From contig NZ_CP027667.1 of the NCBI RefSeq assembly GCF_003008575.1, positions 3,496,001-3,560,000 of the forward strand: a DNA stretch of 64,000 nucleotides. Direction: 5' to 3'. The translations under genes and the position numbers were made by a program. The stretch is from Melaminivora suipulveris. Its GTDB lineage: Bacteria > Pseudomonadota > Gammaproteobacteria > Burkholderiales > Burkholderiaceae_C. Positions 5,314-35,403 of this stretch are shown piece by piece. A model generated the notes under the pieces. It ran no database searches. It worked only from the letters and a program-made list of their open reading frames with translations, and was not told the DNA's origin. The stretch's first letter is position 1, and each line of letters starts with the position of its first letter.

Positions 5314-5348
5314 GGTTAATTTAAGTGGATTGTTTGACGCTTCTGTCG

Positions 5349-6860: not shown

Positions 6861-7775
6861 ATGCCCCACGAACAACTTGCCGATCTAACCCAGCCACAAC
6901 GCGACCGCCTCGCGTTCGTGGAGTTGCGCCTGCGCTTCATGGGGGAGATGCGCCGCCAGGATCTGGTCACGCGCTTTGCTATCCAGTCCGCTGCTGCGTC
7001 CAGGGATCTGGCGCTGTACAAGGAGCTTGCCCCGGGCAACATCGACTACGACGGCAAAGGCAAGTGCTACGTCCTTGGGCCGAGCTTCCAGCCGATCTTC
7101 ACCTTCCCGCCCGAGCGGGCGTTGTCGTGGCTGACGCAGGGGTTTGGCGACGGTGAACCAATGCACATCAAGGCGTGGGTGGCCAGCGAGAGCCCGTCCC
7201 GGCTCACCCATCCTGACCTGGACATCCTGGCGAGCGTGACTCGTGCCATCCACTATGAATGCCCGATGGGTATCGAGTACCACTCCATCTCCAGTGGCCG
7301 CACCACACGCGAGATCGTCCCGTTCGCGTTGATCGACAACGGCCTGCGCTGGCACGTCCGCGCCTTCGACCGCAAATCGCAGGAGTTCCGGGATTTCGTC
7401 ATCACCCGCATCAAGCGCCCTGTGGTGCGTAAGGGGCAGCCCGTGGCGCCCCACGAAATGAACGATCAGGACATTCAGTGGACCCGGATCGTCGAGCTGG
7501 AGCTGGTTCCTCACCCGGATCAACCCCGGCCAGAAATCACCGAAATGGACTACGGCATGCGGGGTGGTGTGCTGCACATGAAGCTGCGTGCCGCCACGGC
7601 TGGCTACATCCTGCGCAAATGGAGTGTGGACTGCTCTCCCGACCATAGCCTGCGCGGCCCCGAGCACCGGCTTTGGTTGAAGGACCACCTCGCCATCTAC
7701 GGCGTGCGCAATGCGGTGCTGGCGCCGGGGTATGCATCGCCAGAAAGTGCTGACGCAGGAGCATCTTATGACTGA
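6861..7775 (+). CDS. brxR: WYL-domain transcriptional regulator of the BREX operon (BrxR-like)
   Basis: A 304-residue regulator with an N-terminal winged helix (residues ~10-65, including RRQDLVTRFAIQSAAASRDLALYKEL) and a central WYL-type ligand-binding domain (residues ~125-200), followed by a C-terminal extension (~210-290). The size and domain order match BrxR/CapW regulators, which repress BREX, CBASS and similar defence operons and are thought to sense an infection-linked ligand, possibly nucleic acid. It is the first gene of the defence operon, only ~60 bp before brxE and in the same direction, which is the usual place for BrxR. The specific ligand is unknown. Start: ATG at 6861 after an AT-rich promoter-like region. 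Confidence 0.85.
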   Translation: MPHEQLADLTQPQRDRLAFVELRLRFMGEMRRQDLVTRFAIQSAAASRDLALYKELAPGNIDYDGKGKCYVLGPSFQPIFTFPPERALSWLTQGFGDGEPMHIKAWVASESPSRLTHPDLDILASVTRAIHYECPMGIEYHSISSGRTTREIVPFALIDNGLRWHVRAFDRKSQEFRDFVITRIKRPVVRKGQPVAPHEMNDQDIQWTRIVELELVPHPDQPRPEITEMDYGMRGGVLHMKLRAATAGYILRKWSVDCSPDHSLRGPEHRLWLKDHLAIYGVRNAVLAPGYASPESADAGASYD

Positions 7776-7837: not shown

Positions 7838-8338
7838 ATGAAAGAATCCTACCTACCGACATTGCTGCAGATGAGGATGCTTGTCGGCTTCCTTGGCGAG
7901 CGTGCTCAGTGCGCCTGGTGGCCAACGGCGTTCTATGAGGCATCAAGCAAGCTCTTCCTGGAGCCGGTTTTCTCGAAAACGTCTCGCCTCGCTCAGTACC
8001 ACGGTGTGCTCGAAGCAGCCAGGCGATTGCACGACGAGCATTTGAGCGTGGGCAGCTACCACCTGTTTCGCTTGCCCGAAGAGGTCGAGCAAGACCTGCA
8101 CGCGACCGTGCAAAGCAGCGTGGGAGAAGAACTCGCCAGCCAGGCACCACAGAGCAAAGAGGCTGCGCTGGATGCGTTGAAGCGATTGGCTGCCACGGGC
8201 GGCACGTCCAGCGTGGGGCCAACGGCGGTGGGTAGCATCAATGATCTTGATTCCACCGACACGCTGAAGGCTATCGCTGCGGCCTATCTATCTGCTTTCA
8301 CCCAGAACGCCAAAACCTATCCGTATCTGGTGCCCTAA
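7838..8338 (+). CDS. brxE: BrxE family BREX protein
   Basis: A ~166-residue protein. The N-terminal pattern LLQMRMLVGFLGERAQCAWWPTAFYEASSKLFLEPVF, the SRLAQYHGVLEAARRLHDE segment and the YHLFRLPEEVEQDLH block match what I remember of the BrxE family, described as a subtype-specific BREX component and not as part of the minimal type 1 set. No catalytic motif is visible and its biochemical role is unknown. I placed the start at the ATG 7838; an ATG at 7823 and a TTG at 7802 are alternatives and none has a strong ribosome-binding site. It ends 6 bp before brxA, so it is clearly in the operon. Confidence 0.8.
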   Translation: MKESYLPTLLQMRMLVGFLGERAQCAWWPTAFYEASSKLFLEPVFSKTSRLAQYHGVLEAARRLHDEHLSVGSYHLFRLPEEVEQDLHATVQSSVGEELASQAPQSKEAALDALKRLAATGGTSSVGPTAVGSINDLDSTDTLKAIAAAYLSAFTQNAKTYPYLVP

Positions 8339-8344
8339 GAGTTT

Positions 8345-9145
8345 ATGAAGAGCATCGTGGCCGACAACACGCCTTACACGACTCAGTTGCAAGCAGGCCT
8401 TGGGCTCGTCAACGAGACCAAGACGCTGCTTGACCTGTGGTCGTCGGGAATGTCGGCAAATCAGTTGCATCAGGTCGCACTGGAATCGGGGCGATTCCCC
8501 ACTGTTACCGCACGCCGACTTCGCAACATCGTCGTCGAATGCTTCGCTCCACGCTATCTCGTGGCAGGTGGCGCACCGGCGGCACATCTCAAGCAGCTGT
8601 CCGCAACGCTATCCACGGCTGACCTGACGCAGCTCATGCTCGTATTTACGAGTCGGGCCAACCCGATCCTCGGCGACTTCGTGCGCCACGTTTACTGGGC
8701 TCGGTATGCCGGTGGATACACCCAGATTACTAATGAAGATGCGCGAACCTTTGTCGAGCGCGGCATCGATGACGGCAAGACCATCAAACGCTGGTCGGAA
8801 ACCACTGTGCGACGTGTCTCCGCCTATCTGACGGGTTGCTGCGCCGACTACGGAATGCTCGAACGTGGACTGCGCTCAAGCCGTCGCATCTTGCCGTTCC
8901 GTATTTCGCCAGCCGTGGCCGCTTACTTGGCCTTTGAACTGCACTTTTCCGGCGTAGGCGACAACGCTCTGCTGACCCACGAAGACTGGCAGTTGTTTGG
9001 CCTGGCGCGCGAAGACGTGCTGGAAGAAATCAAACGGCTCTCGCTGAAGGGACTGCTGATCGTTCAGGCTGCGGGCGACGTGATCCGCATCAGTTGGAAA
9101 CCACAAGACATGGAGACGCTCTGCGATGTCCTCACTCAAAGCTGA
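8345..9145 (+). CDS. brxA: BREX protein BrxA (DUF1819)
   Basis: A 266-residue protein of the DUF1819/BrxA family, a small helical winged-helix DNA-binding protein required in type 1 BREX. Typical features are the N-terminal ETKTLLDLWSSGMS segment, the middle FVRHVYWARYAGG block and the basic TIKRWSETTVRRVSAYL region around residue 150. The start ATG has AAGAG five bases upstream and lies 6 bp after brxE. The 3' end overlaps brxB by 20 bp. In the family BrxA is thought to bind DNA non-specifically as part of the BREX complex. Confidence 0.9.
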   Translation: MKSIVADNTPYTTQLQAGLGLVNETKTLLDLWSSGMSANQLHQVALESGRFPTVTARRLRNIVVECFAPRYLVAGGAPAAHLKQLSATLSTADLTQLMLVFTSRANPILGDFVRHVYWARYAGGYTQITNEDARTFVERGIDDGKTIKRWSETTVRRVSAYLTGCCADYGMLERGLRSSRRILPFRISPAVAAYLAFELHFSGVGDNALLTHEDWQLFGLAREDVLEEIKRLSLKGLLIVQAAGDVIRISWKPQDMETLCDVLTQS

Positions 9146-9701
9146 TTTTGACGAGTTGCGCGAGCGCATCCGGCACGGGCGGGAGCTCGGCCATGCGAGC
9201 TTCGAGCCGATCTATTACCTGGTCTTCTCGCCAGAGCAGATTCTGGAAGTGAAACGACAAACGCCTGCCTGGGTCGCCAAGCTGCATCAGGAAGGCTGGG
9301 ACGTGCATACCTTCTCCATCGTTGAGCAAATCTGGGCTTTGCTCAAAGACGATCCGTTCTGGTCGCTCTGCGTGATGGAAGACAAGTCAGCGCCACTGGA
9401 CTGGCCGCGCACCAACAAGGCACTGGCCGACATTCTGACGACGGAGAACGGCTTGCTCAAGCGGCTTGAGGAAGTCTTACAGCCGCTCGAAGGCCAGCAG
9501 AACGCGCTGCTGTTGGTCACCGACCTGGAAGCGCTGCATCCGTTCATGCGCATCGGCGCCATCGAAAGCCAGCTCCAGGGCAAGTTTCACGTGCCGACGA
9601 TTTTTCTATACCCCGGCGTACGAACCGGCAAAACGCGCCTGAAGTTTCTCGGCTTCTACCCGGAAGATGGCAATTACCGCTCCGTACACGTTGGCGGCTG
9701 A
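9126..9701 (+). CDS. brxB: BREX protein BrxB (DUF1788)
   Basis: A 191-residue DUF1788 protein. Recognisable blocks are the ASFEPIYYLVFSPEQIL N-terminal strand-helix, the LLVTDLEALHPFMRIGAIESQLQG core around residue 140, and the PTIFLYPGVRTGKTRLKFLGFY C-terminal block that also occurs in BREX ATPase-associated proteins. BrxB is a core BREX component and partner of BrxC in the defence complex; no enzymatic activity is established. The start overlaps the end of brxA by 20 bp and its stop lies 28 bp before the chosen brxC start. Confidence 0.92.
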   Translation: MSSLKADFDELRERIRHGRELGHASFEPIYYLVFSPEQILEVKRQTPAWVAKLHQEGWDVHTFSIVEQIWALLKDDPFWSLCVMEDKSAPLDWPRTNKALADILTTENGLLKRLEEVLQPLEGQQNALLLVTDLEALHPFMRIGAIESQLQGKFHVPTIFLYPGVRTGKTRLKFLGFYPEDGNYRSVHVGG

Positions 9702-9729
9702 ACAGACAAAAGAATCCTGGGACAAATTT

Positions 9730-12700
9730 ATGACGATCCGCTCACTCTTCGATCCAAGCAAGGACATCTACCGGACCATCGAGAAGGTCATTACCTACGG
9801 CGCGTCGACCGATGCCCGCCTGAAGGCCGAGATCTCCGAATACGTGGTCACCGAGAGCATCGAGGAGCAATTCCGTAAGCTCCTCGATCGCATGCAGCTC
9901 GCGATGGAGTCCGGTGGCGAAAACGAGGTGGGCGTCTGGGTCTCCGGCTTCTATGGCTCAGGTAAGAGCTCGTTCACCAAGTACCTCGGCCTGGCGTTTG
10001 ATGATCAGTGCGCCATCGACGGCACCCCATTCATCAACCACCTGCAGGATCGTCTGCACAAGCCACAGACCAAAGCGCTCCTCAGCACTGTGGCAAAGCG
10101 CTTCCCAGCGGCTGTGGTCATGCTCGACCTTGCCAGCGAAATGCTCGCCGGTGCCACGATGGAAGACGTTTCCACCGTCCTCTACTTCAAAGTTCTTCAG
10201 TGGGCTGGCTACTCGCGCAACCTCAAGGTGGCAGCTTTCGAGCGCATGGTCGAGAAGGATGGTCGCACGCCCGAACTGCACGAGTGCATCGCGCAGGCAC
10301 TGCCGGGTGCGACCTGGGCCCGCGTGCAAAACAACCCGCTCGCCATCGACGGGCTGATCCCCAAGATCGCCCACGAGATGTACCCGGCACTCTTCCCCGA
10401 GGCCAAGTCCTTCTCGTCCAGCACGGAGGGCTTCTTCCAATTCGAAGACCAGCGCGTGCAGGAGATGATCGACATCGTCCGCGAGAAGAGCGGCAAGCAG
10501 AACATCATCTTCATCGTCGACGAAGTCGGCCAGTATGTGGCCTCGCGTGACAACCTGATTCTCAACCTCGATGGCCTGGCCAAGAACCTCAAGCGGCTGG
10601 GCGACGGCAAAGCCTGGATCATCTCTACCGCGCAGCAGACCCTTACCGAGGACGACCCCCGCGCAGCCCTGAACTCGGACAAGCTCTACAAGCTGAAAGA
10701 TCGCTTCCCGATCCAGATCGACCTCGAATCGAGTGACATCAAAGAGATCTGCTATCGCCGCCTGCTCGGCAAGTCACCGGCTGGCGAGACCGAACTGGGC
10801 AAGCTGTTCGATGCCCATGGTCAGGCCCTGCGACACAACACCAAGCTGCAAGACGCCAAGTATTACGACGCGGACTTCAGCAAAGAGAGTTTCACCAATC
10901 TCTACCCGTTCCTGCCGGCGCACTTCGACATCCTGCTGCACCTACTCGGCGCGCTCGCAAAGTCCACCGGCGGCATCGGTCTACGCTCTGCGATCAAGGT
11001 AATCCAGGATGTCCTGAAAGGTGAAGGCGGTTCCAAGGCCATGGCCGATCAGCCCGTGGGCTGGCTGGCCACCACGGTGACGCTGTACGACGAACTGGAA
11101 AAGGACATCCGCCGCGCCTTCACGTCCATCCACCAGGCGGTTGGCAAGGTCCAGATTCGCTTCCCGGATTCGCAGCTCCATCAGGACATTGCCAAGTCTG
11201 TCGCCGTACTGCAGATCCTCGGCAACCTGCCGGTGTCGGTGCAGAACGTCGCCAGTTTGATGCACCCGTCCATCACTGCAGCATCGCAGCTCGACACGGT
11301 CAAGAAGGCCGTTGAAGAAATGTTGGGCGATGTGCATGTGCCGTTGGGCGAGAAAGACGGCAACCTTGTTTTCCTCAGCGAAAAGCTGCGTGACATCGAA
11401 CAAGAACGCGGTGCCATTGCGCTGCGCACTGTCGATGTGAAGCGCATCTTCAACGATGCACTGCGCGAGTCCTTCGATCCGCTGCCCCGCGTCAGCCTCC
11501 ACGGCACCATGGCCGTTGCGACTGGCCTGAAGGTTCAGGCCGGCAGCGCCATCACCAGCCTGGCGGGCGACAACAATGCGATCCAAACCGTCGTAGAGCT
11601 GGTGCCTGCCAGTGACTACGAGGCTGCCAAGAACCGGATGCTGGACGACTCCCGCAGCCGCGCCGGTCGCAATGTCATCGGCCTTCTGACGCGGTCAAAC
11701 ACGGACCTCGACGACCTGGCCAACGAAATCTATCGCTGCCAGCGCATCGCCGAGCTGCACCGCAACGAGCCCGACCAAGAGGTCAAGGACTACTGCTCCG
11801 GCCAGCTCGACCGCGCTGCCAAGCTCGCCACACAACTGCAAAGCAAGATCAAGCAGACCCTGCAAGCCGGTTCATTTGTCTTCCGGGGGCAGGCCACCGC
11901 CGTGTCGGCGTTGAATGCCGACCTGCTGGAAGCCGCCAAGAAGCTGCTTGCCGACGTGGCCAACCAGGTTTTCGACCGTTACGTCGAAGCGCCGGTACGC
12001 GCTGGCACCGACACCGCCGAGAAATTCCTCAAGGTGGCCAACCCCGCCGCCATCAGCAGCACGCTGGACCCGCTCAGCCTGGTGCAAACCGTGGCGGGGC
12101 GCGCCTCGTTCAAGACCGACCACAAGGCGATGATCAGCATCCGCGACTACATCGACAAGCGCGGCACGGTCGATGGCAAGCGCCTGCTCGACGATTTCAG
12201 CAGCGACCCGTTCGGCTGGTCGCCGGACACCACGCGCTACATCGTGGCCGCCATGCTCATGGCGGGCGAAATAAAGCTCAAGGTCTCGGGGCGTGAAGTC
12301 ACGGCTGCTGGGCAGCAGGCGATCGATGCGCTGAAGACCAACAACTCGTTCAAGCAGATCGGCGTCGCACTGCGCGACGAGCGCCCATCCATCGAAACCC
12401 TCGGTCGGGCGGCAGAGCGACTCTCTGAGCTGGTCGGTGACATGGTTATCCCGCTGGAGCAGGAAATCAGCAAGGCGGCGGCTAAGCACTTCCCGCGCTT
12501 CCAGCACGATTACGGCTCACTGGCCGAAAAGCTCAGCGGCCTTGAGCTGGCGGGCAGTGACCGCATCCGCACCTTGAACCAGGACATTGCCGACGTTCTG
12601 TTTACCGATGCTTCCGACGCCCCGCAGCGTCTGGGTGCCGAAACCTCCGCCATTTACGACAACCTCAAGTGGGCGCTGGAAGTAAAACGGGTGCTCGACA

Positions 12701-13371
12701 ACGGTCTCGACGCCACGCTGCGTGACTTGCAAACTCATCGCCGCGATATCGAAGCACTGCCCGATACCGGTGTGCCAGGGGAACTGCGCCGCGAACTCAG
12801 CGAAGACCTGGAAACCCTGTCAGAGCGCCTGGGCCAAGAAGACTTCTACAAACACAGCGCAGACTTCAATTCGCAGCTCACCCACTTGAAGGGGCGCGTG
12901 CGCGATGCCGTCATCACACTCTCCGACCAGCAAAAGTTGCGTCTGAAGGAAGGCGTCGAAGACCTTCAGCGCATCCCCGAGTGGGAAGAACTCACCCAAG
13001 AGGAACGCGGCAACGCCGTGAATCGTCTGGACGGGCTCGCCCTGGCCGCGACCCAAGACCTGGCCGGGCTCAAAAAGCTGCTGGCGCGCGACTACGACAT
13101 CAACAGCACCCTCGACGATCTGAAACGGTCGATCCAGCGTCAGGGTCAGGAACGCCTGCGTCAGCGCATGGAGGAAGAGCGGGCCAAGACAGGCGAGAAA
13201 GGCCCGGCCAAGCTCACCAAGTCAATCGCAGTGCCGGTGAAGATGACCTCTGCAGCAGACATCGACGCGCTGATTCAACAACTCAATGAAATCAAGGTAC
13301 AGCTCGGCCTCTACTCCGAGATCGAGGTCTCTCTGGTGGTCGGTGATCAACCTGGAACGGGTGGGAGTTAA
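9730..13371 (+). CDS. brxC: BREX P-loop ATPase BrxC
   Basis: A very large (~1213-residue) ATPase, the usual size for BrxC. The opening MTIRSLFDPSKDIYRTIEKVI is characteristic; an in-frame ATG at 9667 lies inside brxB and would add an unrelated leader, so I prefer 9730. The Walker A motif GFYGSGKSS is near residues 73-81 and a Walker B-like IIFIVDEVGQY near residue 260. The C-terminal third is rich in heptad-like helices and Glu/Arg (coiled coil). BrxC is essential for BREX defence and for methylation by PglX; it is thought to be the motor or assembly ATPase of the complex. The next gene begins 2 bp after its stop codon. Confidence 0.95.
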   Translation: MTIRSLFDPSKDIYRTIEKVITYGASTDARLKAEISEYVVTESIEEQFRKLLDRMQLAMESGGENEVGVWVSGFYGSGKSSFTKYLGLAFDDQCAIDGTPFINHLQDRLHKPQTKALLSTVAKRFPAAVVMLDLASEMLAGATMEDVSTVLYFKVLQWAGYSRNLKVAAFERMVEKDGRTPELHECIAQALPGATWARVQNNPLAIDGLIPKIAHEMYPALFPEAKSFSSSTEGFFQFEDQRVQEMIDIVREKSGKQNIIFIVDEVGQYVASRDNLILNLDGLAKNLKRLGDGKAWIISTAQQTLTEDDPRAALNSDKLYKLKDRFPIQIDLESSDIKEICYRRLLGKSPAGETELGKLFDAHGQALRHNTKLQDAKYYDADFSKESFTNLYPFLPAHFDILLHLLGALAKSTGGIGLRSAIKVIQDVLKGEGGSKAMADQPVGWLATTVTLYDELEKDIRRAFTSIHQAVGKVQIRFPDSQLHQDIAKSVAVLQILGNLPVSVQNVASLMHPSITAASQLDTVKKAVEEMLGDVHVPLGEKDGNLVFLSEKLRDIEQERGAIALRTVDVKRIFNDALRESFDPLPRVSLHGTMAVATGLKVQAGSAITSLAGDNNAIQTVVELVPASDYEAAKNRMLDDSRSRAGRNVIGLLTRSNTDLDDLANEIYRCQRIAELHRNEPDQEVKDYCSGQLDRAAKLATQLQSKIKQTLQAGSFVFRGQATAVSALNADLLEAAKKLLADVANQVFDRYVEAPVRAGTDTAEKFLKVANPAAISSTLDPLSLVQTVAGRASFKTDHKAMISIRDYIDKRGTVDGKRLLDDFSSDPFGWSPDTTRYIVAAMLMAGEIKLKVSGREVTAAGQQAIDALKTNNSFKQIGVALRDERPSIETLGRAAERLSELVGDMVIPLEQEISKAAAKHFPRFQHDYGSLAEKLSGLELAGSDRIRTLNQDIADVLFTDASDAPQRLGAETSAIYDNLKWALEVKRVLDNGLDATLRDLQTHRRDIEALPDTGVPGELRRELSEDLETLSERLGQEDFYKHSADFNSQLTHLKGRVRDAVITLSDQQKLRLKEGVEDLQRIPEWEELTQEERGNAVNRLDGLALAATQDLAGLKKLLARDYDINSTLDDLKRSIQRQGQERLRQRMEEERAKTGEKGPAKLTKSIAVPVKMTSAADIDALIQQLNEIKVQLGLYSEIEVSLVVGDQPGTGGS

Positions 13372-13373
13372 GG

Positions 13374-16112
13374 ATGGAAGTGACCAGCGAATCCAGGCAA
13401 CACATCGAGCACCTTGCAGAGGAGGCACTGACCCAGCTTGACAGCATCGCTGCAGCAGCAAAGAGCAAGCTACACGATGGGCGAACGCTCGGCTCCGATG
13501 CATTGGCGAGCATCAACACCATGACGTCCAGCTCGGCTGTGCAGCGGCTAGACCAGATCAATCAGGCGAATCGAGACAGTTATTCCGTGCTGGAAAGGGA
13601 GCCAGCGATTGCTCGTGTTGTCGTCGCGGACGAGGAAGGTGAAGAGCGCACCTACTACATCTGCCGCACTACACCGATAACGGGCTTTCCCAACCTGGCC
13701 AGCTACCGCGCGCCAGTCGGCCGGCTGGCTTCCCTGTCAGTGGGAGCCGAATTCACCCTGCCCAACGGCGATGTCGTCGAGGTCCTAGAACGCGCCCAAC
13801 TTCGACCCTCCGCACTGGCTGATGGCTGGGATTCACGCGACACCGTGGTGGAGGCCGAGCATTTCGGTCCACTCACCATCGAGTCGCTGCGAGCGCTACT
13901 GACTGAGGTTGCCGGAGAAGAAGTCACCGAAGACCTTTTGGGTCAACTGCTGGCTGAAGAAACCGTCAAGGCCAACATCATCGACGGCGTGCGCCGCAGC
14001 GTCATCACCAAGATGGGGCTGCGCGATCAGCCCGTTCTGGATCAGTACCAGGATGAGATCTTCCGTCTTCCCCTCGACAAGCGCTTGCTGATTCTTGGCC
14101 CGCCCGGCACGGGTAAGACGACAACCCTGATCCGCCGCCTTGGCCAGAAGCTCGACACCGACTTCCTGGAGGAAGGCGAACAACGTCTGGTTGAGACGGT
14201 GGCTACTGCCCAGGGCGTCGCGCACGCCAACAGTTGGCTGATGTTCACGCCCACCGAGTTGCTCAAGCAGTACCTCAAAGAAGCGTTTGCGCGCGAAGAC
14301 GTTCCCGCCTCCGATCTGCGCATCAGAACCTGGCAGGACTATCGGCGCGAGCTGGCCAGAAACGCTTTCGGCGTCCTCCGAACCGCGGCGGGTGGCGGCA
14401 CCTTTGTGCTGAAAGACAGCTTGCCAAGCCTGAGCGCAGAGGCGCTGGATCGCCCGATCCAGTGGTTCGATGACTTCAATATGTGGCAGCGCAACGCCTA
14501 CGTGCAAGAGCTGCATGAAGCGGCCAACATGCTCCGCAAAGCCAAGGCACCAGAAGTCCAGAGCTTGGGCGAGCGGCTGCACAGCATCCTGGCACAAGCG
14601 GGCGATGGCGCGTTGGCGTCCACCTTCGGATCGATGGCAGCCGAGCTCCCCAAAGTGCAGACGCTCGTCGCCAGCCTGAAAGAAGCCTCCGACGGCAAGA
14701 TCAAAGCCGCGCTTAACCTCCAACTCAACCGCAATCGAGGTTTCCTCGATGAGCTGGCGCGCTTCATCGATGGCCTGCAACAAGCCCAGACCATCGATAC
14801 CGACGAGCAAGACGACCTCGATGCCGACGAGGAAGAAGACGCCACGACACCTCGCACCGGTCGCGCCGCTGCGCTCAACGCCTACATGCAAGCGGTACGC
14901 GCCCAAGCGAGAGCAGCCGCATCCAAGCGCACGGTCAGCAAAACATCTCGCAACGGCAAAATCATCGAATGGCTGGCCGATCGTGGTCTGACGGAAGCCG
15001 ACCGCGCCGAAGTGGGAGCGAGTCTGCTGGTGCAGACCAACGCGCGCCGCTTCGCGAATCCGGTCAAACGCTATCTCGACGGCATTCCGAAGCGCTACCG
15101 TGCGTTCCGGCGTGAACGCCAACAAGCCCGGAGCTGGTATCGAGACGAAGGCTTCGATGCCCGCGATATTCATCCACTCGAACTGGACATTGTCCTGCTC
15201 GCCATCCTGCGCGCCGCAGGCGACCTGATCAGCCGGCCGAACGTCCTGCGGGATATCGACAGCCCCGCTTGGTCTGCACTTCAGCCCATCCTCAGCCATT
15301 ACCGCAACCAGGTCTTGGTGGATGAGGCAACCGACTTTTCGCCCATTCAGTTGGCCTGCATGGCCGCCCTGGCGCATCCACGGCTGCGCTCGTTCTTTGC
15401 CTGCGGCGACTTCAACCAACGCCTGACCACCTGGGGTGCGCGATCTGCCGACGAAATGAAGTGGGTCTTTGCCGACTTCGACATCAAAGAGATCACCGTC
15501 TCCTACCGGCAGAGCAAGCAACTGAACGATCTGGCTCGCGCCATGATCCGCGCCGTCGGCGGCACCGAGCAGAGTGTCAGCTTACCCCCACATGTGGACA
15601 GTGGCGGCGTAGCGCCCGCGCTCCTGGAGCATGCCTCCGACACACCAATCGTGATCAGTTGGCTGGCAGACCGCATCCGAGAGATCGAACGCTTCGTCGG
15701 CCAACTGCCGTCCACCGCCATCTTTGTAAATGCACAAGACGACGTTCCCGCAGTGGCGGAAGCGCTGAATGCCGCCTTGGCCGAGCACAACATACCTGTG
15801 ATCGCATCGGATGGGAGAACGGTGGGCCAAGAAGGTAACGTGCGCGTCTTCGACATCCAGCACATCAAGGGCCTGGAGTTCGAAGCGGTGTTCTTCGTGG
15901 GCATCGACCAGCTCGCGGCAAAGCATCCGGCACTGTTCGACAAATACCTGTACGTGGGCACCACACGGGCGGCCACTTACCTGGGCGTGACCTGCGACGG
16001 GGTTCTGCCACCCGCCATCGACAGCCTGCGCCCTCACTTTGGCCAGAACTGGCAAGCGCCAGGTTCACCGCAAGCGGTCACGGAACAAGAGGAATCGATT
16101 GATGGCTTTTGA
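13374..16112 (+). CDS. UvrD/Rep-like superfamily 1 helicase within the BREX operon
   Basis: A 912-residue SF1 helicase-like protein. Motif I (Walker A) GPPGTGKTTTL is near residue 241, motif II reads VDEATDFSP (~residue 645), a motif IV-like VSYRQSKQLN is near 710, motif V is IKGLEFEAVFFVG (~840) and motif VI YVGTTRA (~865). The ~240 residues before motif I are unlike UvrD and carry an N-terminal coiled coil and a small beta-rich domain. The gene starts 2 bp after brxC with a GGGAG ribosome-binding site and overlaps pglX by 11 bp, so it is an integral member of the transcript. Helicases of other superfamilies (BrxH types) replace or accompany BrxL in other BREX subtypes; here a UvrD-like enzyme occurs together with BrxL. 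Its role is inferred to be DNA translocation or unwinding during defence. Confidence 0.85.
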   Translation: MEVTSESRQHIEHLAEEALTQLDSIAAAAKSKLHDGRTLGSDALASINTMTSSSAVQRLDQINQANRDSYSVLEREPAIARVVVADEEGEERTYYICRTTPITGFPNLASYRAPVGRLASLSVGAEFTLPNGDVVEVLERAQLRPSALADGWDSRDTVVEAEHFGPLTIESLRALLTEVAGEEVTEDLLGQLLAEETVKANIIDGVRRSVITKMGLRDQPVLDQYQDEIFRLPLDKRLLILGPPGTGKTTTLIRRLGQKLDTDFLEEGEQRLVETVATAQGVAHANSWLMFTPTELLKQYLKEAFAREDVPASDLRIRTWQDYRRELARNAFGVLRTAAGGGTFVLKDSLPSLSAEALDRPIQWFDDFNMWQRNAYVQELHEAANMLRKAKAPEVQSLGERLHSILAQAGDGALASTFGSMAAELPKVQTLVASLKEASDGKIKAALNLQLNRNRGFLDELARFIDGLQQAQTIDTDEQDDLDADEEEDATTPRTGRAAALNAYMQAVRAQARAAASKRTVSKTSRNGKIIEWLADRGLTEADRAEVGASLLVQTNARRFANPVKRYLDGIPKRYRAFRRERQQARSWYRDEGFDARDIHPLELDIVLLAILRAAGDLISRPNVLRDIDSPAWSALQPILSHYRNQVLVDEATDFSPIQLACMAALAHPRLRSFFACGDFNQRLTTWGARSADEMKWVFADFDIKEITVSYRQSKQLNDLARAMIRAVGGTEQSVSLPPHVDSGGVAPALLEHASDTPIVISWLADRIREIERFVGQLPSTAIFVNAQDDVPAVAEALNAALAEHNIPVIASDGRTVGQEGNVRVFDIQHIKGLEFEAVFFVGIDQLAAKHPALFDKYLYVGTTRAATYLGVTCDGVLPPAIDSLRPHFGQNWQAPGSPQAVTEQEESIDGF

Positions 16113-19901: not shown

Positions 19902-21019
19902 TGGCGACCGTTCACTATCATCTGGGTGCGTTTCCTCCCGTCGAACTGGATTGGCCGCAGCTGATCCCGCTGCTGGGGCCTGCCTCGGCGGCAGTGGCGC
20001 GCTACGACGGTACGTTGGCGGCCATCCCCAATGCAGCGGTGCTGCTGTCACCCCTGACCACGCAAGAGGCGGTGCTGTCTTCGCGCATCGAAGGCACCCA
20101 GGCCACCATGGGCGAGGTGCTGGAGTTCGAGGCCGAAGGCGGTTCGCCCGAGTTGAGCGAGGCGCGGCGCAACGATATTCATGAGGTGCTCAACTACCGC
20201 GCCGCGATGCGCATGGCGGAAAAAATGCTGGCGACGGTGCCGCTGTCGCAGCGGGTCGTGCGTGAATCGCACAAGGTGCTGCTCGATGGTGTGCGCGGCC
20301 AGGGCAAATCGCCCGGCGAGTACCGGCGCATTCCCAACTGGATTGGCCCGGCGGGTTGCACGGTAGAACAGGCGCGATTTGTGCCGATTGGCGCGGATAA
20401 ACTGCCCGATGCCATGAGCGCTTGGGAGCGCTATCTGCACACCGATGCGCCCGACCGGCTGGTGCAACTGGCTATCGTGCATGCGGAGTTCGAGGCGCTG
20501 CATCCATTTTTGGATGGTAATGGCCGTCTGGGCCGCATGCTGGTGCCGCTGTTTCTGTGGCAGAACGCGGTCATTCAACGGCCGATGTTTTACCTGAGCG
20601 CCTTTCTGGAGGCGCACCGCGACGAGTATTACGAGCGCCTGTTGGCGGTGTCGCGCGATGGCGATTGGACGGGCTGGTGCCACTTCTTTCTGCAGGCCAT
20701 CAAGACCCAGGCCGAAGAGAACCAGCACAAGGCCGCTGACATTCTGGCGCTGTATGAGCGCATGAAGCGGGAACTGGCTGATTTGACGCGCTCGCAGTAC
20801 GCCATCCACGCTCTGGACTGGATCTTTGAGCGGCCCATCTTCAAGAGTTCGGACTTTGTGGCCAGCAGTGGCATTCCTGAGCCTACCGCCAAGCGCATGC
20901 TGCCTGCCCTGCGCGATGCCGGTGTGCTGCGGGCGCTGGTAGAGGCCAGCGGCCGGCGGGCGGCCACGCTGTGCTTCCCAGCGCTGCTCAACATTGCCGA
21001 AGGACGGGATGCATTTTGA
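19901..21019 (+). CDS. Fic family protein (probable AMPylase) in the BREX operon
   Basis: A 372-residue Fic/DOC-fold protein. The catalytic motif HPFLDGNGRLGR is at residues 201-212 with the His, Asp, both Gly, Asn and Arg all present, so it should transfer AMP or another nucleotide moiety to a protein target. An N-terminal inhibitory helix motif SSRIEG (S60...E64) is present, as in class II self-inhibited Fic enzymes. Residues ~300-365 resemble a winged helix (SSDFVASSGIPEPTAKRMLPAL), a common Fic C-terminal addition. The ATG overlaps the pglX stop (TGATG). I chose this start because the extension in the same frame back to 19670 overlaps pglX entirely. The target is unknown; by position it replaces accessory genes such as brxU found at the same place in another BREX locus. 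Confidence 0.88.
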   Translation: MATVHYHLGAFPPVELDWPQLIPLLGPASAAVARYDGTLAAIPNAAVLLSPLTTQEAVLSSRIEGTQATMGEVLEFEAEGGSPELSEARRNDIHEVLNYRAAMRMAEKMLATVPLSQRVVRESHKVLLDGVRGQGKSPGEYRRIPNWIGPAGCTVEQARFVPIGADKLPDAMSAWERYLHTDAPDRLVQLAIVHAEFEALHPFLDGNGRLGRMLVPLFLWQNAVIQRPMFYLSAFLEAHRDEYYERLLAVSRDGDWTGWCHFFLQAIKTQAEENQHKAADILALYERMKRELADLTRSQYAIHALDWIFERPIFKSSDFVASSGIPEPTAKRMLPALRDAGVLRALVEASGRRAATLCFPALLNIAEGRDAF

Positions 21020-21098
21020 TGCGCACGGGTGCGATACAAGCGACTTTGTTGCGCATGAAGCGGCTATTTGTGCGCCGCAAAACAATAGAGGTGAATCC

Positions 21099-21137
21099 AT
21101 GATCCACAAACACGAGCGCTTGGGGGCAGGCGTATGA
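21099..21137 (+). CDS. Twelve-codon open frame coupled to pglZ
   Basis: A short frame with its own GAGGTG ribosome-binding site, starting at ATG 21099 and reading MIHKHERLGAGV. Its TGA overlaps the pglZ ATG (ATGA). It may be a leader for translational coupling of pglZ, or the vestige of a gene that once lay between Fic and pglZ. Confidence 0.35.
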   Translation: MIHKHERLGAGV

Positions 21138-23653
21138 GCATTGCCGAGTTCATTCGCGAGAGCGTGCTGCGACCGCGCCTGAAGCAAGCGGGCTGCCTGG
21201 TGGTGTACGACGCAGACCGCCGCTACCGCGAACAATGCTTCGACCTGGCGGGCGACCAGCTTCGGGTGGTGGATGCATCGATCAGCAGCATCGAAAGCCG
21301 CGAGGCGGCCCTGCTGGCGCTTCGCGAAGTGGGCAAGGCTGCGCTGGAAGCGGTGTTGATCTATGTGCCCACCCAGCGCCCGGAAACCGACGAGCACAAG
21401 CAGGCTGACCCATTTGCCTTGTATGCAGAATGCGGCGCGGTGTTCCCGCAAGACGATGGCGACGAATACCTAAGCCTGTGCCTGCGCGCCAGGCCGGATC
21501 ACGCCACCGAGATTCGCCAGGTGTTCGCCACGTCTCCCTCTGGGCCGACCTTCGCGGTGATCGACGCCATCGGCGGTGGCGTCAGCTGGCCCCAGTTGCG
21601 AGCCACGCTGCGGGTGGAGTCTGGCCGCGAGATTCTGGCGGCGCTGCTGGCACCCAGCGCCAACCAGACCGAAGCGCTCAAGGGGCAGGAAGGCTGGATG
21701 CAGGAAGCGCGCGATTTTCTCCGTGCCACCTTGGGGCTCTCCGTGAAGACGCGCGGCAAGACCTGGTCCGCGCTGGCGGACGAGCTGTGGCGTTATGTGC
21801 TGTTTTCCGAGTTCGTCTTTGATTTGCCCACGGCCTTGCCGGATGCCCTGAATGGTGTGCCGCACGCGCCGCCCGAGGCCAAGCCTATCGTCGAAGGTGT
21901 GTGCGAGCAGTTGCGCAATGATCCTAAAGCGCGTGCGGCCTATATCGACCGCGCAGAAGCCATAGAGAAAGAACTCAATCTGGTCGAACTCTGTGCTTCG
22001 CTGGAAGACCTGGGCGAGCGCGATACCTTCCCCTTCGAGGAACGAACCTTCCTGCGCGCGGCCATCAAAGGCATCGTCACGGACGACACCGATGCCACGC
22101 GCCGCGTGTTGACCCGCCACAAAGGCTCGGTCTGGCTGGGCATGGGCGAGAGCCAGGCGCAGTGGGAACTGGTGCGCTCGGGGCTGAGCCTGGTTGAAGC
22201 CTGCGACGACTTCGAGCGCCAGCTGCCGGACCACGCTCGCTCCCAGGCCGAGCTGATCGACTTCTATCTGAACAGTCTGCGCGAGGCGGATCGCCTGCAG
22301 CGCGAGTTTGAGCAGGCCGCAGGTGATTTTCTCGATCAGCATGGGCTGATGCACGAGGTCATCAACCAGGCGCGTGCTCGCTATCGCCGCCTGGCGGAAA
22401 AGGTGCAAGGCCTCTTCGTCAAGCATATTGAGACGGCAGGCTGGCCGCCTGCTGGTCGACTGGCCAACGCCGATGTTTTTGATCGCCTGGTGGCTGACCG
22501 CCTCAAGGAGCGTGGCCGCAAGGTGGCGTATTTGATGGTGGACGCCCTGCGCTACGAATTGGGCGTGGCGCTTGAAAAGCTGCTGACTGAGGACGGCCTT
22601 GTTGAATTGCAGGTGGCCTATGCACAGTTGCCCACCATCACCTTGGTCGGCATGGCCAGCTTGCTGCCCAATGCTCGCACAGGGCTGACCCTGGCGCTAG
22701 AGAACGATTCCCTGGTGCCCAAGCTGGACGGTGAATCCGTGGGGAACGTGGCACAGCGCATGGGTGTGCTGGCCAAGCGCTATGGCGATCGCTTCGAGGA
22801 AATGCCGCTGAGTGACTTTGTTCGCGGCAAGCCGAAGATCGCCGAGACCGTCGATCTGCTGGTGCTGCGTTCTACAGAAATCGACAGTCAACTGGAAAAC
22901 AACCCCGAGACCACCTTGGGACTGATCCCCGGCACCTTGAAGCTCATTCGCGTGGCACTGCATAAGCTGCGTGGCATGGGGTTCAAAGAGGCGGTCATCG
23001 TGACCGATCACGGTTTCTTCCTGAATGCCCAGGCGGAAGCCGGCGATGTGTGCGTGAAACCGCAGGGGAAATGGCTGAATGCCCATGACCGCATGATGCT
23101 GGGCAACGGCACGGCGGACAGCCATAGCCTGATCGTTGGCGCTGACAAGGTCGGTATTCGCGGCGATTTTGCGCAAGTGGCGCTGCCGCGCAGCATGGCG
23201 CCGTACCGCTCTGGCCATCTTTACTTTCATGGCGGGGCGTCGCTGGCGGAGGCGGTTGTTCCGGTGCTGGTCGCCCGTCTGGATAGCGGAGCCAATGCGC
23301 AGCCGCGCAAGGTTCTGGTGGAGCTGAGCTACAAGAACGGCGCCAAGCGCATCACCACCTTCCTGCCCGTGATCGAGGTGACCCTGGTCTCCGATGACAT
23401 GTTCACGCAGGACATGAGCGTGGAAATCTTGCTTGAGGCCCAGGACAGCAAAGGCAATGTGGTGGGAGAGCCGCGCCCCGGTGGTGAGGTGAATCCCGCG
23501 ACGAGAACCCTGACCTTGATGCCGAACCAGCGTAAGCAGATTGCATTGCGGATGGATGAGGCATTCAGGGGCAAGTTCAAGGTCGTGGCGCTGAACCCAA
23601 CGACCTTGGCGGCCTACAGCAATCTGGCGCTTGAAACCGACTACACGGAATGA
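21134..23653 (+). CDS. pglZ: BREX phosphatase-fold protein PglZ
   Basis: An 839-residue PglZ. The central region has the alkaline-phosphatase-superfamily fold: VAYLMVDALRYELG (~residue 470) carries the first metal-binding Asp, and EAVIVTDHGFF (~residue 620) the Asp-His pair. The C-terminal ~120 residues form a beta domain. PglZ is the hallmark BREX protein; it is needed both for methylation and for defence, and in the family acts as a metal-dependent nuclease or phosphodiesterase-like component of the complex. Length is as in type 1 BREX. Start at 21134 overlaps the 12-codon leader frame and its own stop overlaps brxL by four bases. Confidence 0.93.
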   Translation: MSIAEFIRESVLRPRLKQAGCLVVYDADRRYREQCFDLAGDQLRVVDASISSIESREAALLALREVGKAALEAVLIYVPTQRPETDEHKQADPFALYAECGAVFPQDDGDEYLSLCLRARPDHATEIRQVFATSPSGPTFAVIDAIGGGVSWPQLRATLRVESGREILAALLAPSANQTEALKGQEGWMQEARDFLRATLGLSVKTRGKTWSALADELWRYVLFSEFVFDLPTALPDALNGVPHAPPEAKPIVEGVCEQLRNDPKARAAYIDRAEAIEKELNLVELCASLEDLGERDTFPFEERTFLRAAIKGIVTDDTDATRRVLTRHKGSVWLGMGESQAQWELVRSGLSLVEACDDFERQLPDHARSQAELIDFYLNSLREADRLQREFEQAAGDFLDQHGLMHEVINQARARYRRLAEKVQGLFVKHIETAGWPPAGRLANADVFDRLVADRLKERGRKVAYLMVDALRYELGVALEKLLTEDGLVELQVAYAQLPTITLVGMASLLPNARTGLTLALENDSLVPKLDGESVGNVAQRMGVLAKRYGDRFEEMPLSDFVRGKPKIAETVDLLVLRSTEIDSQLENNPETTLGLIPGTLKLIRVALHKLRGMGFKEAVIVTDHGFFLNAQAEAGDVCVKPQGKWLNAHDRMMLGNGTADSHSLIVGADKVGIRGDFAQVALPRSMAPYRSGHLYFHGGASLAEAVVPVLVARLDSGANAQPRKVLVELSYKNGAKRITTFLPVIEVTLVSDDMFTQDMSVEILLEAQDSKGNVVGEPRPGGEVNPATRTLTLMPNQRKQIALRMDEAFRGKFKVVALNPTTLAAYSNLALETDYTE

Positions 23654-25761
23654 GCCCTATGGACGAACTCGACCAAAAACTGAACGCCACATTCGACGGC
23701 AAGGTACTTCGTAAGGACCTGCTGCATCGGATTAAAAAGGGCACCAACGTCCCGACGTTCGTCCTGGAGTTTCTGCTCGCCAAATATTGCGCCAGCAATG
23801 ACCAGGCAGAGATGGATGCGGGCATGGAGGCCGTGCTGTCGTCGCTGCAGGAAAACTATGTGCGGCCGGACGAAGCGAATGCGGCTCAGTCCAAGGTCGC
23901 CACCAAGGGTAAGCACCGCTTCATCGACAAAGTTCACGTTCGCTACGTCGAGAAAGAAAAGCGCCACTGGGCATCGCTGGAAAACTTCAACTCGCAACGC
24001 ATCGCCATTGCCGAGAAGTTCTACCGGGATAACGATCGTCTGCTGGAAGGCGGAATTTGGGCCGAAGTCACCCTGGCGCACAACGACATTGATGAAGACG
24101 ACTATGCGTTCTCCATTGAGGACTTGCGACCGATCCAACTGACGCGATTCGATTTTGAACGCTACGCAGAAGGCCGATCAGCCTTCACGCGTGATGAGTG
24201 GATCGCTGCGGTATTGCGCTCAGTAGGCCTGGAGCCAAGCAAGCTGTCGAAGCGCGTGCAGATGCACTTCATCGCGAGGTTGGCCGCTTTGGTGGAGCCC
24301 AACTACAACTACATCGAGCTGGGGCCACGCGGCACAGGTAAATCCTATTTCTTCAGTGAGTTCTCACCCTATGCCACCTTGATCTCGGGCGGCCAGGCGA
24401 CCAAGGCAACGCTGTTCTACAACAACGCGCGCCGCAAGGTGGGTTTGGTAGGGTTTTGGGACACGGTCGCCTTTGACGAAGTCGGCGGAATCAAGGTGCG
24501 CGACCCGGACACCATCCAGATCATGAAGGACTTCATGGCCAACGGGCGCTTCTCGCGCGGCGCAGAAGTCATTGCCGATGCCAGCCTGAGTTTTGTCGGC
24601 AATATCGACGTGTCTGTGCAGCAGGTGGTCAATTCCAACGAACACGACCTGTTTCAGCCCTTGCCGCCGGAACTCGACCTGGCGGTGATGGATCGCTTCG
24701 CCGCGTATATCCCAGGTTGGGAGATGCCCAAGAACAGCAGCGAGTTCCTGACCAGCAACTACGGCTTCATCACCGACTACCTGGCGGAAGCCTTCCACTA
24801 CCAGTTCAAGCACACGAACCGGTATGAGGAGGTCAGCAAGCGCATTCGCCTCGGCAAGGCCATCGAGGGGCGCGACGAAAAAGGCATCAAAAAGACCGTC
24901 TGTGCGTTCTTGAAGGTGCTCCACCCCAACGGCCCACCAACCGACGAAGAGTTCGAGGAATACGTGGCCTACGCGACGGAATGCCGCCGCCGCGTCAAGG
25001 AGCAGATGAACAAGCGCAAACCGGATGACGAGTTCGCGCGCATCAATTTGTCGTATTTCAAAGCCAGCGGCGAGGAAGTGGTGGTGTTCTGCCCAGAGTC
25101 GAAGAATGCGCCGGCAACGCAAGAGCCTGCGCGCCGTCGTTTGAACCAGGGAGGTGAACAGTCCAGGGAAACAGTCGAAACGATTGAAGTGCAGCCAGTC
25201 GTGCAACCCGCGCCTATCGTTGCGACAGAACCTTCGGTCGCCCCGTCGCCGATTGCGCCAACACCAGCGGTGCTTGCGCCGCCCGCACCGGAGCTCAAAG
25301 AGCAGCACTTCACCATCCTCTATGGCGACACGGGTTACAGCTATGAGTCGATCCTCGGCCCTTATCTGCAAGGTGCGAAGGCCGTCGTCATCGAAGACCC
25401 GTACATCCGGCTGCAGCATCAGATTCAGAACTTCGTGCGCTTCTGCGAGACAGTGCTAAAGGCTGGTACGGTGAAGAAGATCAGCCTGATCACCGGCTAT
25501 GACGACAAGACTCAGTTGGCCGACATCGCCGAAAAACTCGATGAGCTGAAGCAAAGCCTGCTGGAGTTGGATGTCGAACTGGAGGTGAAGCTCAATCCGA
25601 ACATCCATGACCGCGAGATCCGTCTGGACAATGGCTGGGTCATCAAGATCGGACGAGGACTGGATTTTTACCAGAAGCCTGGAGGCTGGTTCGAGGTGGG
25701 AGCGAATGATCTCAGCTTGCGAAAGTGCCTGGAGACCAAGGTCGATATTTTTCGGGTTTAG
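23650..25761 (+). CDS. brxL: BREX Lon-like AAA+ protein BrxL
   Basis: A 703-residue BrxL. The N-terminal ~200 residues include the DNA-binding helical domain; the AAA+ Walker A is GPRGTGKS near residues 224-231 and the Walker B-like VAFDEVGG near residue 276; an arginine-containing MDRFAAYIPGW follows. A Pro/Ala-rich linker (residues ~510-550) leads to a C-terminal ~150-residue domain. BrxL forms DNA-encircling barrels in the family and defines type 1 BREX. Start: the ATG at 23650 overlaps the pglZ stop (ATGA); an in-frame ATG at 23659 is possible. It is the last gene of the defence operon and converges on the relaxase gene. Confidence 0.93.
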   Translation: MSPMDELDQKLNATFDGKVLRKDLLHRIKKGTNVPTFVLEFLLAKYCASNDQAEMDAGMEAVLSSLQENYVRPDEANAAQSKVATKGKHRFIDKVHVRYVEKEKRHWASLENFNSQRIAIAEKFYRDNDRLLEGGIWAEVTLAHNDIDEDDYAFSIEDLRPIQLTRFDFERYAEGRSAFTRDEWIAAVLRSVGLEPSKLSKRVQMHFIARLAALVEPNYNYIELGPRGTGKSYFFSEFSPYATLISGGQATKATLFYNNARRKVGLVGFWDTVAFDEVGGIKVRDPDTIQIMKDFMANGRFSRGAEVIADASLSFVGNIDVSVQQVVNSNEHDLFQPLPPELDLAVMDRFAAYIPGWEMPKNSSEFLTSNYGFITDYLAEAFHYQFKHTNRYEEVSKRIRLGKAIEGRDEKGIKKTVCAFLKVLHPNGPPTDEEFEEYVAYATECRRRVKEQMNKRKPDDEFARINLSYFKASGEEVVVFCPESKNAPATQEPARRRLNQGGEQSRETVETIEVQPVVQPAPIVATEPSVAPSPIAPTPAVLAPPAPELKEQHFTILYGDTGYSYESILGPYLQGAKAVVIEDPYIRLQHQIQNFVRFCETVLKAGTVKKISLITGYDDKTQLADIAEKLDELKQSLLELDVELEVKLNPNIHDREIRLDNGWVIKIGRGLDFYQKPGGWFEVGANDLSLRKCLETKVDIFRV

Positions 25762-27645: not shown

Positions 27646-27865
27646 GTGGGTGTCCTGATGGCGGGCCAAGCGGGAGGCCTTTTCGCCTTTTCGGGTAGGG
27701 CCTTTCCCCTTGCACCCCATTCCCTTGCCATTTCGGCCCTTTGGCCTTCAACCGTTTCGGTATAGCGGGGCGTGGATTGCGGCTCCAGCGTCAATGTGGA
27801 ACCCGCTCGAATGGATTGGACGGCGACCCGGCGCTGGCGCTGGCGCTGCGGGAACGCAGCTTCCG

Positions 27866-35218: not shown

Positions 35219-35403
35219 GGCGAACCTCCAGGCAGGGAAATCGGAGGGCGCACATGCCCTTGGAGGGCAGGCCCTCCAGGGAATGGAACAACGGAACAAG
35301 GTGCATCCATCACCGCTGCTGCGGTGATCGTTCGCGGCAGGATGCGAGGCGAACGGGTAGCGGTCAGCGCAGCGTGCTGCGCCGTAGCCTCAATGACCGC
35401 AGG

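Follow-up and report, generated by a model that had tools for sequence, protein, structure and literature searches.

Gene content of the BREX locus

We analysed a 64,000-nucleotide stretch of the Melaminivora suipulveris genome (GCF_003008575.1, contig NZ_CP027667.1, forward-strand positions 3,496,001 to 3,560,000), hereafter the window, which carries a cluster of genes for bacteriophage exclusion (BREX). A preliminary description had placed this cluster at 7838–25761 and read it as a type 1 BREX operon in which BrxE, a UvrD-like helicase and a Fic protein form one composite system. Based on the open reading frame (ORF) listing and family searches, the gene order is WYL regulator, brxE, brxA, brxB, brxC, UvrD-like helicase, pglX, Fic, pglZ and brxL, with the WYL gene upstream at the head of the cluster. 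The genes named earlier and their coordinates hold, except that pglX, although present, is not one gene but two (16102–17994 and 17994–19901). This split and the HKD-type end of BrxL are new with respect to the preliminary description. The features are as follows.

6861–7775, plus strand: WYL-domain transcription regulator (BrxR/CapW-like); Pfam WYL, 42.1 bits
7838–8338, plus strand: BrxE (BrxE_fam, not the BREX-6 equivalog); NF033447, 174.9 bits, cut-off 40
8345–9145, plus strand: BrxA; PADLOC BrxA, 443.8 bits; Pfam BrxA
9126–9701, plus strand: BrxB; PADLOC BrxB, 379.6 bits; Pfam BrxB
9730–13371, plus strand: BrxC ATPase; NF033441, 855 bits; longest ORF from 9667
13374–16112, plus strand: superfamily 1 (SF1; UvrD/HelD-like) helicase; Pfam UvrD_C_2 and UvrD-helicase
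16102–17994, plus strand: PglX-N, catalytic (methyltransferase) half, 630 aa; Eco57I, 90 bits; PADLOC PDLC02527 positions 1–658
17994–19901, plus strand: PglX-C, specificity (target recognition domain) half, 635 aa; PADLOC PDLC02532; PDLC02527 positions 665–1305
19901–21019, plus strand: class II Fic AMP-transferase with a C-terminal DNA-binding-type region; Fic_N and Fic; SoFic structures 3eqx and 3zcn
21015–21085, plus strand: repeat array 3′ of Fic and 5′ of pglZ; 30-bp-spaced pair, shuffle test
21134–23653, plus strand: PglZ; PADLOC PDLC02561, 1371.7 bits; Pfam PglZ; PDB PglZ 9zn5
23650–25761, plus strand: BrxL with a C-terminal PLD/HKD-type nuclease domain; BrxL_N, BrxL_ATPase and MIT_C; PADLOC BrxL, 972 bits

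The genes are tightly packed. BrxE and BrxA are separated by 6 nt, and BrxC and the helicase by 2 nt; overlaps of 20 nt (BrxA–BrxB), 11 nt (helicase–PglX-N), 1 nt (PglX-N–PglX-C and PglX-C–Fic) and 4 nt (PglZ–BrxL) are found at other junctions. BrxC overlaps BrxB by 35 nt in its longest ORF and follows it after 28 nt if it starts at the ATG at 9730, which is likelier than 9667 because the frame is closed 5′ of 9730 in several relatives. The earlier statement that all genes lie within a few dozen bases of each other is correct for most junctions, but not for the 62 nt between the WYL gene and brxE or the 114 nt between Fic and pglZ, the stretch that contains the repeat array. Judging from the gene packing, the operon is probably read as a single transcript.

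The expected motifs were found in the proteins: Walker A in BrxC and BrxL, GPPGTGKT and DEA in the helicase, DPACGS and NPPF in PglX, HPFLDGNGR and SxxxEG in Fic, and HxR-x4-D in BrxL. In the PDB, the WYL protein matched the WYL protein 7qfz (278 bits), CapW (106 bits) and BrxR 7t8k (80 bits), and its relatives, with 68–89% identity, sit before brxE in many sister loci.

BrxE and BrxL recur together in one operon

To collect related loci, we combined one named-genome scan anchored on the helicase, which gave 80 loci, with three BrxE searches in 300, 369 and 299 genomes (4, 3 and 7 genomes with a match, our own included each time; 6 of the 7 were above the cut-off), a plasmid search (3 BrxE records among 72,556, two examined) and an IMG/VR search with PglZ (3 loci). 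Twenty-seven loci in which PglX and its junction to PglZ are visible were placed in the lineage by their core proteins: the window, L040–L044, L046, L047, L049, L050, L054, L060, L064, L072, L109, L120 (identical to L143), L121, L122, L137, L139, L140, L142, L147, L148, L161, L162 and L163. L138 and L042 are one contig, counted once, and L045, L110, L136 and L141, which end before the PglX–PglZ junction, were left out. The lineage reaches Thioflavicoccus (plasmid pTHIMO01) and, as a more distant member with a fused PglX, Hymenobacter (Bacteroidota).

BrxE is present in 22 of the 27 loci and BrxL in 24. BrxE was unseen in L046, L064, L072, L162 and L163, and BrxL in L064, L072 and L140, in each case at the end of the contig or of the retrieved region. 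Both proteins occur together in 21 loci, and the remaining six are truncated in the same manner. Among loci found via BrxE or PglZ with both places readable, BrxE is accompanied by BrxL in 10 out of 10 (L143, L121, L122, L137, L042, L139, L142, L147, L148 and L161). The co-occurrence of BrxE with BrxL, pointed out in the preliminary description, is a recurrent arrangement that extends to Bacteroidota.

PglX is encoded by two genes

PglX-N and PglX-C overlap at TAATG, where the ATG of the C gene shares the last A of the TAA stop codon. PglX-N holds both DPACGS and NPPF, and the two halves tile a single 1332-position PADLOC PglX model, over positions 1–658 and 665–1305. As compared to Salmonella PglX (8c45), PglX-N aligns to residue 595, ~14 residues short of its own end, and PglX-C is picked up at residue 665 from its residue 54, in a weak match covering 8c45 residues 665–855 and 1076–1152. 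Given that the N half ends ~14 residues past 595 and the C half resumes at 665, the break lies near residue 610. This is ~45 residues ahead of the hinge that PMC11341690 locates at residues 654–659.

PglX is split in 17 of the 27 loci and fused in the other 10. Fourteen split and all ten fused versions were aligned; the set omits L042, L060, whose halves are separated by what by eye is a transposase-like ORF, and L140, which has insertions. The junction ends are conserved in the 14 aligned split loci, which come from different bacteria (the N half ends in ...AAYVLEKQ and the C half begins with MTTFLRLL...), and those of them that have no insertion between the halves start the C gene with an ATG or GTG that overlaps the N gene. 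Between these ends, the C half is highly variable. Pairwise identity across the 11 closest split loci averages 90.6% in the N half, 42.0% over C-half residues 16–340 and 84.2% over residues 341–620, and the recognition region of the window is just 27–33% identical to those of the 13 other aligned split loci. In L064 (4408–8213), one catalytic-half gene is followed by two intact specificity genes in tandem (638 and 630 aa), which share 38% identity in the recognition region and 80% elsewhere. In L147 (NC_019941.1, 16631–24441, Thioflavicoccus pTHIMO01), an annotated ATP-binding-domain gene and a DUF2290 gene lie between the halves, so that a programmed frameshift is disfavoured.

The split might instead have no functional meaning, reflecting a recent frameshift, a sequencing error or a protein fused by ribosomal frameshifting, and the 1–4-nt stop/start overlap at the junction would indeed allow a small shift to join the frames. 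However, neither the same boundary with conserved ends in 14 loci, nor the tandem C genes of L064, nor the genes inserted in L147 fit such an explanation, which is therefore highly improbable; the artefact was rejected on the identity of the boundary. As to the history of the split, the idea of its repeated gain and loss was toned down, as four changes on a 24-row tree fall to one without the long rows L147 and L148.

The organisation resembles that of type I restriction-modification (R-M) systems (HsdM, HsdS and HsdR), in which catalytic and specificity genes are likewise separate and the specificity region is hypervariable. It differs from them in that the effector is PglZ/BrxL rather than HsdR and in that each C gene, judging from its length, would hold one recognition domain instead of two. 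The gene structure is that of a type I-like modification/specificity pair, and the assembly of the subunits is a prediction: the split may represent a division into catalysis and specificity, in which the C half would set the target motif and the two halves would assemble. In a word search limited to PMC12839542, PMC11341690 and PMC12707154, a split PglX was not mentioned. A specificity gene that stands apart runs counter to the notion that BREX methyltransferases always have their recognition domain fused, and it would allow a direct test of how BREX target motifs depend on a single small gene.

The core genes place the system between types 1 and 6

As in BREX systems generally, PglZ, BrxC and a PglX-type methyltransferase are clustered with BrxA and BrxB. 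The presence of BrxL and the order A-B-C-X-Z-L correspond to type 1, and the window shares with the type 1 systems of E. coli HS, Salmonella and Acinetobacter the six core genes in their usual order, the WYL gene at the head and the habit of inserting extra defence genes around pglX. In the type 1 comparison system pEFER, a DUF262 gene, known as BrxU, is located near pglX; PARIS is another such extra defence gene. The window differs from type 1 in having BrxE and in its PglZ, which scores under the type 1 NCBIfam cut-offs (type A, 103.0 vs 270.35; type B, 59.9 vs 400). BREX-1 was the top-scoring BREX type for both PglX halves, with 482.4 for the N half and 183.7 for the C half against a cut-off of 500 that applies to one whole protein.

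Type 6 BREX has the gene order brxE-A-B-C-pglX-pglZ-brxD-brxHI. The window is similar to it in the BrxE at the start and in PglZ, whose top NCBIfam score was to BREX_PglZ_6 (167.4 bits). On the other hand, this score is below the type 6 cut-off of 400, the window has BrxL, and BrxE, which belongs to the family NF033447, reached only 37.1 bits with the type 6 model NF033448 (BREX_6_BrxE; cut-off 80). No operon protein matched BrxD or BrxHI among the matches listed (for PglX-N, the best 25 of 43 families), the presence of a BrxD model in the library being unchecked. The best PDB match of BrxE was at chance level (E 0.84), and a genome search for type 6 PglZ references returned 0 of 249 above the cut-off. 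Given that the type 1 genes are all present, that PglZ lies under both sets of cut-offs and that BrxE is assigned at the family level only, we file the window system as a BREX variant between types 1 and 6, belonging to neither. BrxE is given as exclusive to type 6 in PMC12839542.

The C-terminus of BrxL, where a Lon-like domain is usual, is of the PLD/HKD type (MIT_C, E 5.7e-52) and contains HDREIRLD (HxR-x4-D) at residue 653; its nuclease activity is predicted. In PMC12839542, BrxL-HKD variants are described for 1030 of the 2913 type 1 taxa that have BrxL, and the BrxL of the window is like them in the PLD/HKD-type C-terminus and the HxR-x4-D motif, with no notable difference from the variants as described there.

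The helicase is an optional module

The helicase profile matches the HelD and UvrD structures, and homologues are numerous (2516 at E ≤ 1e-10 among 7995 scored). The protein shares the motor core of these SF1 helicases, but it scores far below every NCBIfam cut-off matched and has ~240 N-terminal residues ahead of the ATP-binding motif. In many lineage loci, it occupies the interval between brxC and pglX, and in this respect the earlier view of an embedded gene is borne out. Its constancy is not: among the 13 loci found by BrxE or PglZ, and not through the helicase, it is present in three (L137, L042 and L162, between brxC and pglX) and absent in ten (L120, L121, L122, L139, L140, L142, L147, L148, L161 and L163).

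Helicases with 72–86% identity are encoded in a different operon, SNF2-DUF4391-helicase-Mod-Res, at 13 loci (L002, L003, L048, L051–L053, L055–L059, L106 and L123). Six of these (L003, L052, L053, L057, L058 and L123) have, upstream and in the same orientation, a WYL gene 45–85% identical to that of the window. In the close helicase clade of 28 rows (14 BREX, 13 SNF2 and 1 other), the two kinds of system are interleaved in a FastTree tree, and exchange of the helicase between BREX and SNF2/Mod/Res systems is suggested. The stronger claim of repeated exchange was toned down, since a likelihood test does not reject a single clade of BREX helicases (p-AU 0.145). A neighbour census of more distant helicases (77 ORFs) revealed no constant partner, the commonest family being found in 3. 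The helicase is thus an optional module, occurring in both BREX and SNF2/Mod/Res operons, and its contribution is testable in two different systems.

Some side observations concern the same gene. The SNF2-DUF4391-helicase-Mod-Res operon is type III-like, with two additional motors, and the SNF2 protein of L048 matches PADLOC C3a139 HKD+Snf2. In L050 (6463–9995, Herbaspirillum), a TOTE-type RecD-like helicase and an S1/CSD protein (PDC-M16A/B) are located between brxC and the UvrD-like helicase. L089 and L090 (1792–12691, Roseobacter) are BREX-like operons with a fused PglX and BrxL, in which a 45% identical helicase copy directly follows brxL, representing a second, separate BREX link of this helicase.

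The PglX–PglZ slot and the Fic cassette

The slot between PglX and PglZ contains extra genes in 19 of the 27 loci, of defence type where scanned. Its contents are GmrSD-like, HEC-07-like, OLD ATPase with DUF4276, DuOB with DUF488, a UPF0175/DUF3368 pair (before pglZ in L147), SEC-C, unscanned ORFs and Fic. For each kind, the assignment comes from a family scan or the annotation of one or two members, with the rest placed by similarity; the slot genes of L137, L139, L140, L162 and L163 had no family scan, L162 and L163 being placed by similarity. The slot is empty in eight loci (L046, L047, L072, L120, L121, L122, L142 and L161). Auxiliary cassettes in BREX have been described (PMC12839542), and the word Fic is absent from the main text of that paper. 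A literature search found no paper joining BREX, Fic and AMPylation, with BREX and Fic co-occurring as words in PMC10740426 and PMC8649781.

Fic occupies the slot in the window alone, and none of three examined plasmid records, out of 183 matched by Fic, was BREX. The preliminary description had proposed to look for brxL loci sharing brxE, this helicase and Fic; the triple combination was found only in the window in the sample of 27, the outcome named in that description as refuting the proposal, and the parts recur separately. These counts bear on the idea that BrxE, helicase and Fic are integral to one fixed system joining methylation, unwinding and AMPylation in a single pathway. The tight packing with overlaps, the constant position of the helicase in many loci and the recurring BrxE–BrxL pair speak for it; however, Fic is present in 1 of 27 loci and the helicase in 3 of the 13 not found through it, and relatives of both are partnered with other systems, the helicase in the SNF2/DUF4391/Mod/Res operon. 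We consider the fixed composite improbable and rejected it.

The Fic protein has the motifs SRIEG and HPFLDGNGRLGR, and belongs to class II by the combination of the Fic motif with an N-terminal (S/T)xxxE(G/N). It resembles SoFic (3eqx; PMC12249575) in the self-inhibitory SxxxEG helix, HPFxDGNGR and length, and differs in scoring far under the cut-off of the SoFic equivalog NF046030 (165.8 vs 550) and in lacking a conserved AS1-like antitoxin gene downstream, where we found just a 27-codon ORF that is absent in the compared relatives. Abortive infection is the reported mode of action of Sofic (PMC12249575), which supports a backup role for the window Fic, though the latter is far under the SoFic cut-off. 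The depositors of 3eqx, the nearest solved relative, named it a Fic domain containing transcriptional regulator, and PMC10628234 describes a winged-helix class II Fic that is stimulated by DNA.

We compared the surroundings of 14 Fics that are ≥50% identical and readable, the window included (L164, L165, L175, L069, L168, L169, L170, L178, L179, L144, L180, L181 and L190). Ten lie in or beside DNA-modification operons, seven of them directly after a modification or specificity gene. The orders are HsdM-HsdS-Fic-HsdR in L164 and L175, HsdS-like end (by eye)-Fic-HsdR in L165, Mod-Fic-Res in L069, Fic-Res after a PAS protein in L169, Fic-Res with Mod two ORFs upstream in L168, Mod-Fic up to the contig end in L170, a methyltransferase and an Mrr-like gene followed by Fic in L178, Fic before a fused methyltransferase/specificity protein in L179, and PglX-Fic-PglZ in the window. 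L183 (51%) was excluded for an internal stop, and L176 and L177 repeat L164 and L165. Since the Fic sets were drawn from a single order sample of 300 genomes, 8 of which matched at E ≤ 1e-80, from IMG/VR, the helicase loci and three plasmid matches, the fraction of 10 in 14 is not a census. As a side observation, in L146 (Thermus plasmid pAA2-2c, 5445–12898), a 40% identical Fic lies between helicase-related and DUF1156 proteins (annotated), possibly in a modification operon.

Fic is probably a transferable cassette, and members of its clade often sit between a modification gene and a restriction gene. Could it nevertheless be an unrelated passenger, a toxin-like standalone gene of the SoFic type without a functional link to BREX? 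The single BREX case, the abundance of homologues (7983 at E ≤ 1e-40 among 7998 scored) and a 63% identical, standalone Fic on a conjugative plasmid would be compatible with this. The recurrent position of its close relatives in modification operons and the one-base overlap with the PglX-C stop, with the reading order intact, argue in the opposite direction, and we regard the passenger explanation as unlikely, though it retains appreciable weight.

Repeats downstream of Fic

Two direct repeats, TTTGATGCGCA (21015–21025) and TTTGTTGCGCA (21045–21055), lie 30 bp apart at the end of the window Fic, with further half-site-like words, found by eye, at 21030–21039, 21067–21076 and 21076–21085. L164 has TTTGAGGGTCAC and TTTGTGGGTCAC, L165 has GTGAGCGACAAA twice, and direct repeats with 30-bp spacing are found directly 3′ of the Fic stop in many genes of the clade. 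None of 300 shuffles equalled the 30-bp pair of the window; the inverted pair 21030–21039/21046–21055 alone was not significant (p 0.17).

The spacing was further tested on 45 Fics, 17 with ≥44% identity and 28 more distant. Of the 17, we excluded the four discovery loci (window, L164, L165 and L069), as well as L180 for its low complexity. In 7 of the 12 further relatives, 30 bp was the top spacing among the 46 tested, as the sole best in L181, L175, L178, L168 and L184 and tied in L182 and L190, as compared to 0 of the 28 distant Fics and 3 of 45 coding-sequence controls. The distant set was a picked part of 79 loci plus L146, L171, L173 and L174, with L186/L187 and L188/L189 as near-copies; L170 (contig end) and L183 (internal stop) were outside the test. 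L169, which lacks the 30-bp pair, carries two perfectly inverted words, ACTCCACAAA-GATG-TTTGTGGAGT.

The repeat words vary by locus, whereas the 30-bp spacing and the TTTGTG/CACAAA core tend to persist, as would be expected for sites of a diverging DNA-binding protein. This suggests that the repeats are candidate operators for the C-terminal DNA-binding-type region of Fic. They may instead be left over from an unrelated element, or belong to an RNA structure at the end of the Fic gene: the Fic stop codon overlaps with one of them, and protein binding at the repeats is putative. The persistence of spacing and core among diverging words is less easily explained in that way, and we hold this alternative to be the less probable one, albeit with a substantial share. 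The array sits at a position matching that of a start or promoter before pglZ in two studied BREX systems (PMC12707154).

A modular BREX variant

The window system is a new, modular BREX variant and not a fixed composite: the earlier suggestion of an undescribed variant stands, but not its description as one system of modification, unwinding and AMPylation. In our reading, to which we assign a probability of about 0.68, it is a BREX operon with intact-looking genes that belongs to a recurrent BrxE–BrxL lineage, travels as cargo of an integrative conjugative element (ICE) and carries plug-in parts, namely a split PglX, an optional helicase and a Fic backup or regulator cassette.

BrxB, BrxC, PglX-N, PglX-C and PglZ would form the usual modification complex, in which the recognition domain would sit on a subunit of its own that can be exchanged, in analogy to HsdS and HsdM in type I systems; this view rests on the conserved split site, the start/stop overlap, the variable recognition region between conserved ends and the tandem specificity genes. 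Restriction would be carried out by PglZ and the BrxL-HKD nuclease, in keeping with their families. The helicase may serve as an optional DNA motor for more than one modification-based system, with its partner and task being conjectural. Fic would most likely be a backup, a self-inhibited AMP-transferase let loose when the main system fails. Through its C-terminal domain, it may bind its own repeat array ahead of the effector gene, and it may also regulate pglZ-brxL.

Several observations weigh against parts of this reading. The trees are compatible with one or with several origins of the PglX split and do not demand repeated helicase exchange, and the helicase frame is broken in L060. With Fic in a single slot, a chance insertion of a standalone gene into the ICE cargo is possible. 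The Fics of L144 (63%), L181 (73%), L180 and L190 (both 51%) are outside modification operons, the Mod of L168 runs into a transposase domain, and the reading frame of the L170 Fic is interrupted close to its start. The 30-bp repeat is lacking in L144, L169, L172, L179 and L145, and is found without a clear R-M operon in L181, L182 and L184, with just an HSDR_N-like protein upstream in L182. Moreover, no sigma-70-like site was found at 20900–21250, around the Fic–PglZ gap.

A bolder version would make the Fic clade a portable guard module for modification-based immunity, a DNA-binding AMP-transferase with its own 30-bp-spaced operator array and a typical position between the modification/specificity gene and the effector gene (HsdR, Res or PglZ). 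A single protein would then control effector expression and, upon breach, arrest the cell by AMPylation; together with a two-subunit PglX and its exchangeable specificity genes, BREX here would be type I-like and built of swappable parts. We consider this version speculative and, on balance, unlikely. The Fic cassette and repeat array, common to type I, type III-like and BREX operons, offer a concrete starting point for studying the coupling of toxin-like plug-ins to restriction systems.

Probable mobile element and neighbouring genes

An integrase gene (3052–4146, minus strand) lies on the left flank of the BREX cluster. On the right flank, the minus strand carries a TraI_2 relaxase gene (25789–27720) and a TraG_N gene (29853–31376), followed farther right by a radC RNA motif (35303–35450, minus strand). 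Since these features flank the operon, it is most likely cargo of an ICE, presumably an ICEclc-like one. Between the integrase and the BREX cluster, two minus-strand genes are of the LysR type (4586–5227, without an HTH match, and 5692–6582, with an HTH match), and a small XRE-type regulator is encoded on the plus strand (5325–5654).

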